DNA from: Sinohyriopsis cumingii
Lineage: Eukaryota > Mollusca > Bivalvia > Unionida > Unionidae
Assembly (NCBI GenBank): GCA_028554795.2
Contig: CM068842.1
Coordinates: 49,373,574-49,437,573, forward strand
Reading direction: 5' to 3'
Length of the DNA: 64,000 nucleotides
The notes below the pieces were generated by a model that saw only the letters and a list, made by a program, of their open reading frames with translations, had not been told where the DNA came from and ran no database searches. The position numbers and the translations under genes were made by a program. Each line of letters starts with the position of its first letter. Position 1 is the stretch's first letter. Shown one piece after another: positions 3 through 39,600 of the stretch.

Positions 3-206
3 AGTCTCATCTCGGACGAAGTCGTGTTGCATCAGTGGTATAAAGACTTGCGTGAACATTCTTGTCCACCATTAACCATTAAAGAGATCCATCGTATCGA
101 AGCTCTCCTGAAACAGAGTGGGGAGACGAAGCGAAGAAACGGTTATTTGTCAGACATTTTCAAGCAAAAAGTCAGGATCGAATTGATGACTTATTATTAC
201 CTGTGA
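3..206 (+). CDS. C-terminal end of an unidentified element gene (open at left edge)
   Basis: A reading frame open from the window edge to a TGA at 204-206. The visible 67 or so residues are hydrophilic and mixed-charge (KEIHRIEALLKQSGE region) with no membrane segment. It ends 24 bases before the protease ATG, on the same strand, so it is probably the preceding gene of the same element. I do not recognise the family. The true start is outside the window or at Met 24. Confidence 0.35.
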   Translation, partial: SLISDEVVLHQWYKDLREHSCPPLTIKEIHRIEALLKQSGETKRRNGYLSDIFKQKVRIELMTYYYL

Positions 207-229: not shown

Positions 230-792
230 ATGGATACCTGGGAACTTTATTACCTTTTGAACCACAGTTCGTACACGGCTTCTTGGAATCCTGTCGTCTG
301 TGCTAAAGATGAACTCCCTCATCGCAAACCTCAAGACCATCTAGCTTATGTCATCAACACGGACGACAGTCATCTCCCAGGAACCCCCTGGGTAGCCGTC
401 TACTTTCCTCAAGAAGGATGTGTGGAATATTTTGATTCGTATGGATTGCCCCCTTTCGAAGACGATATCATTGACTTTATGAGAAGAAATGCTCAGACCA
501 CCCGATTCAATAATGTGAAATTACAAGGCACAGATTCCTTGGTGTGTGGACAATATTGTGTGTTTATTTTCTGCATCGTCGCAGCCTGGGCTATTCTTTA
601 GAACATTTAGTGACTCATTTTGATCCTCGTTCTTCTTCTAGAAACGATGTGAAAGTAAATCAATGGTTTTGTGACCATTATGCTTATCTTTTGTCTCAAG
701 CTAGGAAACGTAGTGTCCATCAATGGCCTAATGACTTCCAACAGTGGAAATCACAATTTCATTCACAACGTTGTCAGCCTTGTCCAAAATAA
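230..792 (+). pseudogene. Adenovirus-type (C5-like) cysteine protease, broken
   Basis: Processing protease of the adenain fold family, which in Polinton-like elements cuts capsid precursors. The likely start is ATG 230 (MDTWELYYLLN); the frame also opens upstream from a GTG but has no better start. Visible landmarks in order: NTDDSHLPGTPWVAVYF, then EYFDSYGLPP, then VCGQYCVF with the candidate nucleophile cysteine. Family members have His where this copy has Pro in PGT-P-WVA, so the catalytic base is lost. The frame then runs into a stop at 599-601, while the expected C-terminal part (about 60 residues, ending at 792) continues in another frame, so there is a one-step frameshift around 560-600. 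Overall span fits a protease of about 190 residues. The gene is followed by an ordinary AATAAA at 903, unlike the next three genes. Confidence 0.75.
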
Positions 793-902: not shown

Positions 903-908
903 AATAAA
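903..908 (+). terminator. AATAAA polyadenylation signal after the protease gene
   Basis: Hexamer about 110 bases past the end of the protease frame, followed by T- and GT-rich sequence. It contrasts with the histone-like ends of the three downstream genes. Confidence 0.45.
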
Positions 909-1040: not shown

Positions 1041-1076
1041 GATGTTTTCCTTCACGTCCGCGCTTTGACTTTAAAG
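1041..1076 (+). promoter_or_regulatory. Promoter-like box, copy 1
   Basis: First of three near-identical boxes with core TTCACGTCCGCGCTTT preceded by GATGTTTTCC and followed after a few bases by a TTTAAAG or TATAAA-like run. It lies about 55-90 bases upstream of the ATG at 1129. Position, repetition and the TATA-like tail suggest a shared promoter; this is inference. Confidence 0.6.
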
Positions 1077-1128: not shown

Positions 1129-1491
1129 ATGTGATCCAAACTAGCTAAGCTAAACGAAGCCTACGTGAATTTGTACAGGGTCAGACACAGTCTGATACAG
1201 AAGCCAGAAGAGATAGAGAATGTGAGAGTGCTAAAAGTCACTGAAGACCTGATAGAAGAGCTCTTCAGAGAAGAAATGAACAGGGAGAAAGAAGAATGGA
1301 CAGAGAAGTACAGACTTCAGAAACAGCAGAGAGAGCAGCAACAGCAGCAACAGCAGCAGCAGCAACCTGAACCTGACAGAGGCTTTGTCGATTGTCGTAT
1401 CGACACCAAAGAGTTCTTCTTCTCTTTCCGAAGAAACAGACCTATCGTCAGAATGTCTATCGTCAGAGGACATCGCATTCTTAGAAACTAA
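1129..1491 (+). pseudogene. Small charged, polyglutamine-containing element gene A (stop at codon 2)
   Basis: ATG at 1129 is followed at once by TGA, then the same frame stays open to 1491 (about 118 codons). The start SKLAKLNEAYVNLYRVR aligns with the start of gene B (TRLAKLLELHVHLEYAR), so the two are paralogues and the TGA is a mutation of this copy. The middle is Glu/Lys-rich and likely helical (EELFREEMNREKEEW), followed by a run of ten glutamines from mixed CAG/CAA codons near 1340-1366. No known domain is recognised. It sits between promoter box 1 and histone-like 3' end 1. Confidence 0.5.
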
Positions 1492-1517: not shown

Positions 1518-1557
1518 AGCCCTTTTCAGGGCTACCCAATACTCTAGAAAAGAAATA
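1518..1557 (+). terminator. Histone-mRNA-like 3' end, copy 1
   Basis: AGCCCTTTTCAGGGCT (1518-1533) forms a perfect 6-bp stem with a TTTC tetraloop, preceded by an A-rich flank and followed by ACCCAAT, as in replication-dependent histone mRNAs. Then comes the purine-rich CTCTAGAAAAGAAATAG (1541-1557) at the position of the histone downstream element bound by U7 snRNA. It lies 27 bases after the stop of gene A. Confidence 0.75.
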
Positions 1558-1904
1558 GTAATCCATTTGCCAATGTGTGTAGGTAGAGTAGTATGAATAT
1601 AAACACCGGCTCTTTTTTTATAGTGTGAGTGTATGTGTTTGTGTATATGATTGTGTGTTTGTAAGTGCTCACGTACGTTTGTGTGGATAGTAGATTATGA
1701 TGATTTTTTTTTTTTTTTTGCTGTTTCACGTGTGGGGAGAGTAGATTTGGGGTTTGATTGGATTGCCTTGCGTATGTGGATAGTGTATTATTTGTTTAAT
1801 AAAATTTTTTAGAATAGTGATGGGTAGTATAAAAAGTGAGTGTTTCTTTTAGGTCCGAGCGTTGTTTGGTTATGATCTAGGTAAGATCAATTTTGTTTTA
1901 GGGG

Positions 1905-1940
1905 GATGTTTTCCATCACGTCCGCGCTTTCAGTATAAAT
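1905..1940 (+). promoter_or_regulatory. Promoter-like box, copy 2
   Basis: Same core as copy 1 with one change in the first half (TCC-A-TCACG) and a TATAAAT directly downstream (1934-1940). About 55-90 bases before the ATG at 1994, the same spacing as copy 1. Confidence 0.6.
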
Positions 1941-1993
1941 TAAAAATCGTTCGGCAGTCTAGCTACCCTTGTTGATTGATCAACTCCACCAGA

Positions 1994-2309
1994 ATGAACA
2001 CCAGACTAGCTAAACTGCTTGAACTTCATGTACACCTGGAATATGCCAGGCGTATAGTGAATTGAGCTGGCTGCAGAGGCCATCGTAGAAGAGGGAAGGA
2101 TGAAAGAGGAGGAGAGAAGAAACAAAGAAGAGGAGGAGAGAAGAAACAAAGAGGAAGAAAAGGAAAGAGGAAATTTCAGAATCCCAGGGACAGAAGATTG
2201 GGGTTCTGAAACCACTTATCCCGCCTCTGCTCTCCCCCAAAAAAGAGTGAAAAGAGACTGGGGAAGAAGATGTGTGTGTGGTGCCAGGCCTGGAAGGTGT
2301 CATCATTAA
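1994..2309 (+). pseudogene. Small charged element gene B (frameshifted)
   Basis: ATG at 1994 opens a frame related to gene A but meets TGA at 2063. The adjacent frame stays open from about 2064 (ELAAEAIVEEG) through a Glu/Arg-rich repeat (RRNKEEEE, two copies) to a stop at 2309, so a frameshift near 2060 splits the gene. The combined product would be about 105 residues: a short helical start, an acidic/basic coiled-coil-like middle and a basic tail (QKRVKRDWGRR). No known family recognised. Flanked by promoter box 2 and histone-like 3' end 2. Confidence 0.5.
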
Positions 2310-2337
2310 CCAGGTACCGTGGAGTTCAAAAACAAAC

Positions 2338-2377
2338 AGCCCTTTTCAGGACTACCCAATACTCTAGAAAAGAAATA
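2338..2377 (+). terminator. Histone-mRNA-like 3' end, copy 2
   Basis: AGCCCTTTTCAGGACT (2338-2353), the same stem-loop with one mispaired position, followed by ACCCAAT and an identical purine-rich element CTCTAGAAAAGAAATAG (2361-2377). It is 28 bases after the stop of gene B, matching copy 1. Confidence 0.7.
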
Positions 2378-2591
2378 GTAATCGATTTGCCAACGTGTGT
2401 ATGTAGAGTAGTGTGAATATAAACACTGACTCTTTTTTTCTTGTGTGTTTGTAAGCGCTCACGTACGTTTGTGTGGATAGTAGATTTGGGTTTAATTTTA
2501 ATGCTTTGCGTGTGTGAATAGTAGATTAGGTTTTTTTTATTGATGCTTCACGTATGTGGATAGTAGATCATATGAAATGAGAAAAGTAGGG

Positions 2592-2627
2592 GATGTTTTC
2601 CTTCACGTCCGCGCTTTAACTATAAAA
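2592..2627 (+). promoter_or_regulatory. Promoter-like box, copy 3
   Basis: Same core as copies 1 and 2, followed by CTATAAAA. It lies about 50-85 bases upstream of the ATG at 2679. Confidence 0.6.
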
Positions 2628-2678
2628 CTAACAGTGTTTGCCATTGGAGCCCATTCCACGGAATAAGCAAACAAGAAG

Positions 2679-3243
2679 ATGCCAGCAGCTTCAGCTTTGT
2701 ATAACAACCTTATGGGAAGTTGGTACTGGATGGTGGATGGATTGAATGTAGCAGAAAGGCTTGAACAGGAATGGAGGCATGCAGTGACAAAAGACTTCGT
2801 CTCAAGACAAGTAACCAGCCTCCACTTAGCAATCGATATTGTGAAAGAAATGATAGAGGATGAGGAGAAGAGAATCAGAGGTTTCATTAACCCACCGTAT
2901 GTGAAAGTGGGCAAGTTGAAAGAAGCCACAGTTTGTGACGAGTGTAAGGTGTTTTTTAGAAGACATTGTAGAATGGACAGATTGGTCTTTTGTGAAGTGG
3001 GGCTTAGACAAGTTTAAGAAAGCGGAAGAAGTAATGAGGAAAGTGCTGACCGAAGAGGTCAAGAACATCAAAGAAAAGTGGTCAAAGGAAAGAAAAGAAG
3101 AAGAAAATAGAAAGAAAAAGGAAGAACTAGAGAAACTAAACGCTAACTGGATGAAAATCCAACAGAAGTTCCGAGCCATGGGTCACCCGGACTGGATACC
3201 GGAAACAGAAAAGAAGAAGAAGAAAGAAATGATGGAAAAATAA
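2679..3243 (+). pseudogene. Charged coiled-coil element gene C (frameshifted)
   Basis: ATG at 2679 opens about 110 codons ending at 3017. A second frame, open from about 2935, continues to 3243 with the lysine/glutamate-rich helix (KEKWSKERKEEENRKKKEE) and a tail containing GHPDWIPE. The two halves overlap by about 80 bases and together sit exactly between promoter box 3 and histone-like 3' end 3, so they are best read as one gene of about 185 residues split by a frameshift near 2940. No known domain is recognised. Two overlapping genes remain possible. Confidence 0.5.
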
Positions 3244-3296
3244 GGGGATGGATAAAGAAGTTAAGGAGTTAGAAGAAAAAGAAGAAGAAACCCAAA

Positions 3297-3335
3297 GGCC
3301 CTTTTCAGGGCCACACCAATTTCTCGAAAAGAGAT
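3297..3335 (+). terminator. Histone-mRNA-like 3' end, copy 3
   Basis: GGCCCTTTTCAGGGCC (3297-3312) is the canonical histone stem-loop, with CCAAA on the 5' side and ACACCA on the 3' side, followed by the purine-rich TTCTCGAAAAGAGATCG about 9 bases on. It lies 53 bases after the stop of gene C. The stem differs from copies 1 and 2 (GGC..GCC against AGC..GCT) but keeps pairing, a compensatory change. Confidence 0.8.
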
Positions 3336-3407: not shown

Positions 3408-3660
3408 TCAATTCCCCTTGTCCCTAGAATTGCTTTTTTTCTCCCATGTTAAATTTCCCTTGTCGCTCAACAGACCCACGATTTATTCCCCATGTTAATT
3501 TCCCTTGTCGCTCAACAGACCCAAACTCTATTCCCATGTTAAATTTCCCTTGACGCCAAAGTGACCCAGGGGATTTCGTAATGTTAAATTTCCCATTGAC
3601 GCCTAAGTGACCCAGGGTGTTTTTTAATGCTAATTCCCATTGACGCTAAAGTGACCCGAT
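3408..3660. repeat. Terminal 50-60 bp tandem repeats of the Polinton-like element
   Basis: About six degenerate units built on ATGTTAAATTTCCC followed by TTGTCGCTCAACAGACCCA or TTGACGCCAAAGTGACCCA. They begin just after the last gene and end at the putative element boundary. Short repeats near the ends are plausible for such elements, but no inverted partner is visible in the window. Confidence 0.6.
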
Positions 3661-3664
3661 TTAC

Positions 3665-3742
3665 TACTGGCAGGCTTTCCCACGTATCCACGCTAGCCGA
3701 GCCTTGGACTCGAACCCTCGCAGACAGATGTGAGATGGGATG
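3665..3742 (-). mobile_element. SINE-B fragment (copy B1, minus strand)
   Basis: The reverse complement aligns to the tRNA-like head of SINE-B, including the box-B-like GGTTCGAGTCC and the segment GTGGGAAAGCCTGCCAGTAG. Only about 80 bp remain; the other side is cut off where the tandem repeats of the virus-like element begin. Confidence 0.65.
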
Positions 3743-4890
3743 AGTGAAGCAAAGTCATCAGTTGTAATTGTTGTTATCCTCATTTTACATATATTTAGAC
3801 ATTTAGGCAACCTTGTACCAGGATTACCTATTCGAGTTTTCGTTCACTGAGCAAATGAAGCTACCCTGATTACTGTTCATGCTGGATTGTTCTATTGTAT
3901 GACAAGTGGTAAGTAACTTTCTGATTGGTTGGTTTGCTACTTGTCTGTATAAACAAGATAGTATGAACAGCATACTAGTGGTGGTCATGCCACTGGAGTT
4001 TCTGAAGGGTACTGGTCATGGCACTGAAGTAAGAAAAGTGCCTGATTCTATTGCTTCAAGGAAAATGTGACTTTATCTTTGTCCCATATGATAAGGTAAA
4101 TAGATTTTGAATATGGTTAATGTAACAGTTTATTTTATATGTACTCTGTATATTTCTCTAGAATTTTATGTTGATGAATTTTAGTCTGCATATTTCTCTA
4201 GAATGTATGATGTATTTTAGTACCTTTAATAGGTTATCAACCTACATATTCATTTTTAAGAGCCTATCATTATGTCCATACGCTTGTCTGATTGCCTGTC
4301 TGTCTGCTCTCTACTTCTGCTCTACACACTGATTGTTGTGTTTAGGTTTATTTGGTCCACTATCTCTCTAGATGGATAATCAATAAATATATGGTGTAGT
4401 CAGATTGAATGTACTGTAAACATGATCAATGTATACATGCAGAACAATAATGCACTGATGACGGTATTATTTATTGTTGTAGTAAATGTATTTTCATTGT
4501 ATTTGCAGTGTGTAACAAAGCAGGAGAAATGTATTTATTTCCACTTGTCAACCTCATGCACAATAAAACCCAATTTCTTTTAACAAATACTGGACTTGTA
4601 TCGTCTATTCTGTTAGTAGAAGGCATGTGCTGTAACTTTAATCCATTAAAATATGCGGGCAGTTAAAAAAAAATATGGGATTAAGAAGGCAAACGATGTT
4701 TCACTTGTGTTTCTACAATGATGTTCAGCAGTTCTGGTGCTAAATAAGAGAATTATTTAATTTCTTTCACTATATCTAAGGCACATTTTCAAAATATATA
4801 ATTGTAGGCTGAAAAATAACTTGTGAATCACCGTTCCGCTGATAGACTTGTCATTAAACTCGTGTTAGTATCCTGTCCACGAAGTAGGAT

Positions 4891-4972
4891 AGTCCTACAA
4901 TGTAAGACATCGACCCAGATATTTATCCCTAAAACATAATATCGGGGTCGATGTCTTATATTGTAGGACTAG
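4891..4972. mobile_element. Small foldback MITE
   Basis: Arms 4891-4916 and 4945-4970 are inverted and match at 25 of 26 positions (outer bases AGTCCTACAATGTAAGACAT). The flanks 4881-4890 and 4973-4982 are the same 10 bases, gaagtaggat, a likely target duplication. A 9-10 bp duplication points to a Mutator-like family. Confidence 0.7.
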
Positions 4973-5224: not shown

Positions 5225-5519
5225 GATGTCGTATCCTCCGCAACTTAAGTTGATGAAGATAGTATAAGACCTATACGCGTCTGGGACGATGTCGTATCAC
5301 AGGGGTCTGACGTTTTATAAATAAAGTACGGCGAAATCTCTGACAATATGAAATCCCCTTATCGATAATAGTGTTTATTTATATTACCGACAAGGGGATT
5401 TCATATTGTCAGAGATTTCGCCGTACTTTATTGATAAAACGTCAGACTTCTGTGGTCGTATCCTCCGCAACTTTAGTTGATAAAGATAGTATAAGACCTA
5501 TACGCGTCTGGGACGATGC
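5225..5519. repeat. 63-bp tandem pair, second copy split by a MITE
   Basis: Copy 1 (5225-5287) and copy 2 (5288-5298 continued at 5455-5515) share the unit starting GATGTCGTATCCTCCGCAAC. The inserted MITE separates copy 2, so copy 1 shows the empty site. Confidence 0.75.
5299..5454. mobile_element. hAT-related MITE with 8-bp target duplication
   Basis: A nearly perfect palindrome of 156 bp whose arms start ACAGGGGTCTGACGTTTTAT and whose 3' end mirrors this. The 8 bases gtcgtatc occur on both sides (5291-5298 and 5455-5462) but only once in the empty-site copy. The arm sequence (GTACGGCGAAATCTCTGACA) matches the left end of the decayed hAT element at 20206, so that family is its probable source. 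Confidence 0.8.
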
Positions 5520-36600: not shown

Positions 36601-39600
36601 TAATACATGGCTTGCAGTGAGACTGTTATTTAATAATGTTATTGTGTAATATTACCTGTGAAACTATAGATGGATGTTATCATACTAATCAATTTTAATG
36701 TTATGTGATAAATTATATTTCTGAATTAAGAGGAGGCTGGATGTAGTCAACAGTCAGCACATGTGGATCCTGTGGTTTCTTCCGTGAATCCTGCCTATAT
36801 TCCCTTGGAGAAAAAGATGCTGGTTGAAAATTATGAGAAAGACGAGGAAGCTGGATGTAGCCAACAGTCAGCACATGTGGATCCTGTGGTTTCTTCTGTG
36901 AATCCTGCCTATATTCCCTTGGAGAAAAAGATGCTGGTTGAAAAGGATGAGAGAAACAAGGACTGGAAACATATTCAAAACCATGATATTATACTGATGC
37001 CAGACAAGTGGGAATTTCCATGGGTAGGTACCTCAAAACTAAATTATACCAGAAGAATGGTAATTTCCCTGGATAGGTGCCTCAAAACTAAATTCCATCA
37101 GATGAGTTGAAATTTTCCTAGATAGGTGCCTCAGAATTGAATTCCATCAGATGCGTGGGAGTTTCCCTGACGAGGTGCCAGAAAACTAAAATCCACATAA
37201 TTATTCAGTAGAAAGTTTTCTTTGGTTTTATTATATCAGGATCAACTGGCAATTAATTTTGGGGAGAGGTAGAGTGGAGCACTTATTTTCAACACATAAT
37301 AGCACTGTTGTACCTGAAATTGCAGACTTTGTATCTGTCTCAAAGCTGGTTGTGTTAGATTATAATGAGCCAGTAGAATATAAAGGATCTTGTAGATTCA
37401 CTTGAGGACCAGTGAATACATTGTATATTTTAGTTTGTGTGTGTTTTAACATTTGTGTATGTAACATTCAGTATGCCACATACTTGGCATTCAGTATGCA
37501 CACATACAAGGCATTCAACATGCACACATACAAGGCATTCAGCATGCACACATACAAGGCATTCAGCATGCACACATACAAGGCATTCAACATGCACACA
37601 TACAAGGCATTCAACATGCACACATACAAGGCATTCAGTATGCACACATACAAGGCATTCAACATGCACACATACAAGGCATTCAACATGCACACATACA
37701 AGGCATTCACCATGCACACATACAAGGCATTCAACATGCACACATACAAGGCATTCAACATGCACAAATACAAGCCATTCAATATGCACACACAAGTCAT
37801 TCAACATGCACACATACAAGGCATTCAGCATGCACACATAAAAGTCATTCAGCTTGCACACATACAAGGCATTCAACATGCACACATACAAGGCATTCAG
37901 CATGCACACATAAAAGTCATTCAGCATGCACACATACAAGGACAAGGCATTCAACATGCACACATAAAAGGCATTCAACATGCACACATACAAGGCATTA
38001 AGCATGCACACATACAAGGACAAGGCATTCATCATGCACACATACAAGGACAAGGCATTCAACATGCACACATACAAGGCATTCAACATGCACACATACA
38101 AGGCATTCAACATGCACACATAAAAGGCATTCAACATGCACACATAAAAGGCATTCAACATGCACACATACAAGGCATTCAACATGCACACATACAAGGA
38201 CAAGGCATTCAACATGCACACATACAAGGACAAGGCATTCAACATGCACACATACAAGGACAAGGCATTCAACATGCACACATACAAGGCATTCAGCATG
38301 CACACATACAAGGACAAGGCATTCAACATGCACACATACAAGGACAAGGTATTCAACATGCACACATACAAGGACAAGGCATTCAACATGCACACATACA
38401 AGGACAAGGCATTCAACATGCACACATACAAGGACAAGGCATTCGACATGCACACATACAAGGCATTCAGCATGCACACATACAAGGCATTCAGCATGCA
38501 CACATACAAGGCATTCAACATGCACACATACAAGGCATTCAACATGCACACATAAAAGGCATTCAACATGCACACATACAAGGACAAGGCATTCAACATG
38601 CACACATACAAGGACAAGGCATTCAACATGCACACATACAAGGCATTCAGCATGCACACATACAAGGACAAGGCATTCAACATGCACACATACAAGGCAT
38701 TCAGCATGCACACATACAAGGACAAGGCATTCAGCATGCACACATACAAGGACAAGGCATTCAACATGCACACACACAAGGCATTCAGCATGCACACATA
38801 CAAGGACAAGGCATTCAACATGCACACATACAAGGCATTCAGCATGCACACATACAAGGACAAGGCATTCAGCATGCACACATACAAGGACAAGGCATTC
38901 AACATGCACACATACAAGGACAAGGCATTCAGCATGCACACATACAAGACATCCAAAATGCTACAAAACAAAGCATTCAGCATACACACATACAAGACAT
39001 TCAGCATGCACACATACAAGGCATTCAACATGCACACATACAAGGCAAACATCAACACATACAAGCCATTCAACATGCACACTGTTATGTATATTTAATT
39101 TAATTATTTGTTTGTTAGTTATTTAATTTTTTTAATTCTATTTCATGCTATTGTAATGTAACTTTGTTTACTGGATTTGATATTGTCTAGAACAGAGTTC
39201 AGTTCTGATTGTTTTTTTAATATATTTTTGACAAATAATGGAGACTTTGTATCTAATGCTGACATAGTTCCTGATCTTGTTTCAAAATCAGTGGCAGTTT
39301 TGGTAAACAACTTTTTATATATATTTTGTTATATTCTTTCACAGAGTAAGAATTGTTAAGTTTAGCAAAGGTTATACCTGGACTAAGTGATAATTTTCAT
39401 GAACAAACTTTCATTTCTTCTGGAGGGGCTCCGAGTGGTCAAGTGGTCTAAAGTGCTGTCAGTTATGGATCCATGCCATCTCACCTCTGTGTGGGTTCGA
39501 GTCTAGGATTCAGCTAATGTGGGTATGTGAGAAAGCTTGCCAGTAGCTTCTCATGGGTTGGTGGTTCTTCCTGGGGTTTTCCCGGGTTCTTCCTCCACCA

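Follow-up and report, generated by a model that had tools for sequence, protein, structure and literature searches.

Polinton/Maverick elements and adintoviruses are marked by a type B DNA polymerase (PolB), an rve integrase with a chromodomain and an adenain-like protease. Polinton/Maverick elements also have jelly-roll capsid genes, a packaging ATPase, terminal inverted repeats and a 6-bp target duplication. A second field that bears on the locus described here is the 3' end formation of replication-dependent histone messages, which excerpts of two papers describe as the only animal protein-coding mRNAs without poly(A) tails (PMC6303110, PMC12819152). Their hallmark, in the portion of a paper that states it for Hydractinia, is a stem-loop together with a purine-rich element (PMC5011920), and the core of that element in mouse H2a is given in an excerpt as AAAGAG (PMC7026596). 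Finally, the viral histones, such as the bracovirus H4, are cases in which the histone protein itself was captured, according to sections of a review (PMC9145170).

The element considered here shares its polymerase, its integrase with chromodomain and its adenain-like protease with the Polinton/Maverick and adintovirus group, and differs in that its terminal small genes have histone-type ends. These ends are like those of replication-dependent histones in their 6-pair stem, 4-nt loop, ACCCA-like flank and purine element at 13 nt, and gene 3 contains the same AAAGAG as the mouse H2a core in that excerpt (PMC7026596), whereas the genes that bear them are non-histone and are carried by a mobile virus-like element. 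As with the bracovirus H4, a DNA virus would be using histone biology, but here the RNA signal occurs without a histone protein. The signals have the anatomy of histone 3' ends, are conserved across diverged copies and match the H3 and H2B signals of the host. Judging from sequence, we put at about 0.85 the probability that the terminal small genes of this Polinton family use replication-dependent histone-type 3' ends and, with them, the host S-phase route.

The window, that is, the whole 64-kb stretch of DNA that was analysed (C19:49373574-49437573), comes from a genome of 2.90 Gb. In the 20 kb to its left, Pfam searches reveal PolB frames, an rve integrase and a chromodomain: the family PF03175, type B polymerases of viral and organellar kind, is matched by two frames of this left flank (L033; E 3.1e-16 and 1.2e-23), and PF00665 (integrase, E 7.7e-12) and PF00385 (chromo, E 4.2e-08) by two adjoining frames. 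Within the window, the profile of the protease family, which has 163 homologues at E≤0.001, matches adenain (1avp, E 5.4e-05) and S273R (6lj9, E 2.6e-11). Because of these three markers the element is taken as a Polinton, the label that the earlier note had given it, and the evidence supports the view that the window contains the right end of a decayed copy. Two candidate capsid frames gave no Pfam match at E≤0.1. The protease and genes 1-3 are all broken in the window's copy (Table 1); the first frame of the protease spans 230-601, and by eye its C-terminal part switches to a different frame, which stops at 790-792.

Table 1. Features at the right end of the element (positions in the window)
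Feature	Position	Strand	Evidence or remark
Upstream open frame, 3' end (67 codons)	3..206	+	No Pfam family above cut-off
Adenain-like cysteine protease gene, frameshifted	230..792	+	Homologues, profile match
AATAAA downstream of protease gene	903..908	+	Ordinary polyadenylation-type signal
Promoter-side repeat, gene 1	1041..1075	+	26-nt motif and TATA-like TTTAAA
Gene 1	1129..1491	+	TGA at codon 2 in the window's copy; uninterrupted relatives exist
Histone-type stem-loop, gene 1 (AGCCCTTTTCAGGGCT)	1518..1533	+	RF00032, folding, pattern scan
Purine-rich downstream element, gene 1 (GAAAAGAAA)	1547..1555	+	13 nt past stem
Promoter-side repeat, gene 2	1905..1939	+	With TATAAA
Gene 2, N-terminal paralogue of gene 1	1994..2309	+	Frameshifted (first frame stops 2063-2065)
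Histone-type stem-loop, gene 2 (AGCCCTTTTCAGGACT)	2338..2353	+	RF00032, folding; third pair broken
Purine-rich downstream element, gene 2	2367..2375	+
Promoter-side repeat, gene 3	2592..2626	+	With TATAAA
Gene 3	2679..3243	+	Frameshifted in the window's copy (frames 2679-3017, 2953-3243)
Histone-type stem-loop, gene 3 (GGCCCTTTTCAGGGCC)	3297..3312	+	RF00032, above gathering score
Purine-rich downstream element, gene 3	3326..3334	+	Contains AAAAGAG
About five 45-nt tandem repeats, right end of element	3437..3660	+	Repeat families D3, D5, D6

The genes that bear the signal occur in two groups, the tandem genes 1-3 at one end of the element and, in other copies, a divergent pair, gA and gB. Decayed matches to gA and gB are present in the left flank of the window's copy. 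The core of the stem-loop was not found there within 2 mismatches of 14, in a scan covering 20 kb of this one decayed copy, and therefore the PolB and integrase core genes and the decayed gA/gB of this flank are without the signal.

The earlier note had claimed that each of the three small genes is followed by a stem-loop, an ACCCA-type flank and GAAAAGA, and this description holds in each of its parts. The TAA stops of genes 1, 2 and 3 are separated from the stems by 26, 28 and 53 nt; the flanks read ACCCA, ACCCA and ACACCA, respectively; and GAAAAGA begins 13 nt past the stem in all three cases. Between the genes the first pair of the stem changes from A-U to G-C with pairing kept, as had been noted, and the mispair reported in one of the two like stems is the broken third pair of gene 2. 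The protease gene was likewise found to have the normal AATAAA ascribed to it (at 903), and a second AATAAA occurs at 1798, 265 nt past the stem-loop of gene 1.

How strong are these signals? The covariance-model check that the earlier note had proposed gives matches to RF00032 (Histone3) at all three sites, with 33.0, 23.8 and 37.7 bits for genes 1, 2 and 3 (E 6.9e-07, 0.0019 and 1.2e-08 in a 4-kb scan), so that one of the three passes the gathering score of 34. Predicted folding is stable for genes 1 and 3 (-9.0 and -11.4 kcal/mol, z about -3) and weak for gene 2 (-1.8 kcal/mol, z -0.57). A pattern of stem-loop and flank has three matches in the 64 kb, all at genes 1-3, in a scan whose control, with up to 3 mismatches, also gave three matches in 1 of 100 shuffles. 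The pattern of stem-loop plus purine element finds only the three sites on both strands of the window, and when the first 3.7 kb were simulated 2000 times with a first-order model it never appeared. A chance origin of the signals is rejected on the RF00032 matches and these simulations.

Upstream of the coding regions, a 26-nt motif is common to genes 1-3 (at 1041, 1905 and 2592), 87-89 nt before each ATG, and a search of the window allowing up to 3 mismatches found no further site. Genes 1 and 2 are identical at 112 of 124 nt of their 3' flanks (90%), with coding parts at about 50%, and the 3' block of these two genes was therefore duplicated. The likeness of gene 3 to gene 1 is weak, 0-7 of 1000 shuffles being as good for these low-complexity proteins; the two pieces of gene 3 lie in one frame in four of the five other copies that match both. 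The intergenic DNA after genes 1 and 2 also contains 42-nt repeats (family D4, window 1711-2568).

The host's own histone genes provide a direct comparison. Of PF00125 hits 150 were scored, and the majority belong to tandem arrays with a repeat unit of about 8.3 kb, located on C14 and on many small contigs; arrays are seen, for example, on C310, C531, C561 and at C14:13.10 Mb. Three host 3' ends were read, one of H3 and two of H2B as assigned by their translated ends. With RF00032 the ends of H3 and H2B reach 35.9 and 38.2 bits; they have GAAAAGA 13 nt past the stem, and their stop-to-stem distances are 28 nt (H3) and 34 nt (H2B). When these modules are set against the three units of the window, 28-33 of 38 positions are identical; gene 3 reaches 33 of 38 against H3, and gene 1 and H2B share CTCTAGAAAAGA. 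The window sites, at 23.8-37.7 bits, fall within or below the host histone range. So close a match to host histone 3' ends is what one would see if the genes were fragments of host histone clusters and the signals simply those of histones. Yet no Pfam histone was found in the gene products (E≤1; E≤0.1 for gA and gB), none of H3, H4, H2A or H2B appeared at E≤1e-3 in 70 RF00032 loci of the genome, and the scored host histone hits are mostly in the separate arrays described above. On these grounds we reject such an origin, to which we give next to no probability; the capture of histone-cluster fragments, which the earlier note had named as refuting its reading, is contradicted.

Are the signals maintained in other copies of the element? 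The genome contains at least 150 copies of gene 1 (150 scored among 27,168 first-look candidates), and we analysed the best 30 of these by protein score, a choice made independently of the 3' signal. The stem-loop site follows gene 1 in all 30: 19 copies keep all six pairs, 8 keep five, 2 keep four, and 1 has lost half of the site by deletion; the expectation that relatives keep the stem-loops is thus upheld, 27 of the 30 having at least five of the six pairs. An RF00032 match at E≤0.01 lies at the gene-1 site in 15 of the 30 copies, the other 15 having no such match. Counting Histone3 matches anywhere in the loci at the same threshold, there are 24 in 19 of the 30 loci; none of the 24 reaches the gathering score of 34, the best being 33.5. 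A likely reason for these sub-cut-off scores is the A-U first pair, which is present in 29 of 29 ungapped copies. The purine core is in its usual place in 13 of the 19 gene-1 copies that pass a stricter stem-loop scan, one base off in 3 and unrecognised in 3. At the 5' side, 22 of the 30 copies have the 26-nt motif with no more than 5 mismatches, and in the other 8 it has at least 7; only 8 of the 30 copies have a TATA-like box following it.

Pairwise identity among the gene-1 copies is 0.881 in the stem-loop, 0.864 in ACCCA, 0.821 in the linker and 0.929 in the purine element, as against 0.847 at the coding end, 0.801 in the stop-to-stem spacer and 0.56-0.68 further downstream. The contrast of the stem-loop with the spacer and the coding end is modest. 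The frames of gene 1 are uninterrupted over the matched span in 19 of 30 copies. Median dN is 0.066 and median dN/dS 0.17, and the ratio is below 1 in all 169 usable pairs of 171; like the identities, these values describe copies from one genome and were computed regardless of how the copies are related.

It might be argued that a histone 3' end was acquired once and has since been copied along with the small genes as a passive relic that is not used. The 3' flank common to genes 1 and 2 would fit such a history, as would the 11 of 30 gene-1 copies that are without one or more of the six pairs, and the purine element of gB is not specially conserved (see below). The stem-loop and purine element of gene 1 are nonetheless better conserved than the DNA downstream of them, at a median dS of 0.405 between copies, and the signal is kept in five gene types, with a difference between them that preserves pairing. 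We therefore regard passive copying as improbable, and continue with the reading in which the histone-type ends are used.

Among 589,472 first-look candidates in the genome 75 RF00032 places were scored, and 70 loci were analysed, five being left out. All 75 listed places are above the curated cut-off, and element copies reach 45.6 bits; this perfection is biased, since it was a search for the signal itself that yielded the places, and the list is an incomplete one and no fair ranking, the host arrays being absent from it though host ends score 35.9-38.2 bits. By tblastn, 49 of the 70 loci have gA/gB, 18 have genes 1-3, 3 have neither and none has a histone; the 3 loci with neither gene set have the promoter motif, on the same strand as the stem-loop. 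The genes gA and gB are divergent and each ends in a stem-loop on its outer side, the two stem-loops being about 1.04-1.09 kb apart. Stem-loops other than those used as search anchors follow gA in 12 of 15 copies and gB in 4 of 4.

The 31 loci (30 plus the window) have 60 stem-loops, 30 of which were search anchors; 56 of the 60 share a single offset of the purine core, which is one base off in 1 and absent in 3. After gene 2 the stem opens with A-U in 10 of 11 cases (A-C in the other); it opens with G-C after gene 3 (14/14), gB (19/19) and gA (12/15). Together with the A-U of gene 1, this sets the gene classes apart by their first pair without loss of pairing. For gA and gB conservation is less informative: for gA (15 rows) the stem-loop, at 0.82 identity, is hardly distinct from the spacer, at 0.814, and for gB (30 rows, 26 of them anchored on the stem-loop) the stem-loop stands at 0.996 and the purine element at 0.709, no better than its surroundings.

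Perhaps the hairpin acts at some other level, as a transcription terminator, a DNA hairpin for replication or packaging, or an RNA stability element, with a convergent likeness to histone ends. Hairpins near the ends of an element would suit such a role, but it is difficult to see why each of the 60 stem-loops, in the tandem and the divergent arrangement alike, should then have a same-strand gene match upstream (a few of these assignments are poor), or why the spacing to the purine core should be fixed and the core the same as in host H3 and H2B, when a plain hairpin needs neither. We consider a role of this kind as unlikely as passive copying, and the histone-type 3' end, as the earlier note had read it, remains the preferred and supported reading.

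How might such ends be used? Since the signals are on the small genes, the messages of these genes are probably produced through the host S-phase histone route. RNA polymerase II would transcribe the small genes from promoters at the common 26-nt motif. By analogy with the known pathway, as set out in excerpts of two papers, host SLBP would bind the stem-loop (PMC7026596, PMC6303110), the U7 snRNP would pair with the purine element, and CPSF73 would cut about 5 nt past the stem. The resulting mRNAs would be non-polyadenylated and most stable in S phase, the phase in which replication of a DNA element that encodes a polymerase of its own would be expected.

It seems likely, if less so than the use of the route itself, that these are the first animal non-histone protein-coding genes with genuine histone-type non-polyadenylated ends, and that whole gene blocks have come under the host S-phase histone programme, with more than 100 copies drawing on SLBP and U7. 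If so, they would break the rule, given in passages of the literature, that in animals a protein-coding mRNA without a poly(A) tail is always a histone mRNA (PMC6303110, PMC12819152). They would also show, in a natural setting, which features are enough for the SLBP/U7 pathway, and would be an instance of a DNA element timing its own genes to host S phase. No publication was found that links histone stem-loops with Polintons, transposable elements, adintovirus polyadenylation or viral mRNAs, in a search that most subscription journals lay outside. In the main text of the viral-histone review the terms stem-loop, SLBP and polyadenylation were not found (PMC9145170), and in the accessible portion of a preprint on animal viruses that includes adintoviruses the terms polyadenylation and stem-loop are absent, its two histone passages being concerned with histone-like proteins (PMC11071296).

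Public sequence collections contain 12 protein relatives of gene 1, 7 of them at 70-79% identity over 87-99% of the query; one relative (P0122) appears to run upstream through a peptide that would correspond to the promoter-side motif and TATA box. The model of the gene-1 family (mean pLDDT 80, pTM 0.34) predicts helices and a beta hairpin, and no structural relative of it was found at E≤0.001. Because the gene 1 product is predicted to be a long helix with a basic tail, and gB is very basic (pI 11.0), our guesses for the small proteins are roles in DNA or chromatin binding or in packaging. For gA there is only a sub-cut-off Pfam match (DUF5089, 19.2 bits vs 36.1), and no homologue was found for the first frame of gene 3. 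Searches of IMG/VR by protease, gene 1, stem-loop pattern and promoter pattern confirmed no relative, nor did those of phages, nor those of prokaryote genome contigs by gene 1. Alignment of the protease found two Polinton-like contigs in bacterial MAGs, from an Escarpia endosymbiont (L001) and Muriicola (L002), which are probably contamination from other organisms. Both are fragments, and neither has a Histone3 match at E≤1. By eye, the protease adjoins frames resembling PolB or integrase in each (L001 1-3607, L002 1-7163).

Several minor features lie beyond the right end of the element. Past the tandem repeats, a tRNA-like B-box on the minus strand (window 3690-3720) is by eye perhaps a SINE relic. 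Near-perfect, MITE-like inverted repeats occur at 5298-5454 and 4890-4971 (73-nt arms at 93% and 34-nt arms at 94%, respectively), and matches of these to miRNA families are far below the family cut-offs. Finally, a short tandem repeat at 37406-39126 gives long open frames on both strands and appears by eye to be a minisatellite, not a gene.
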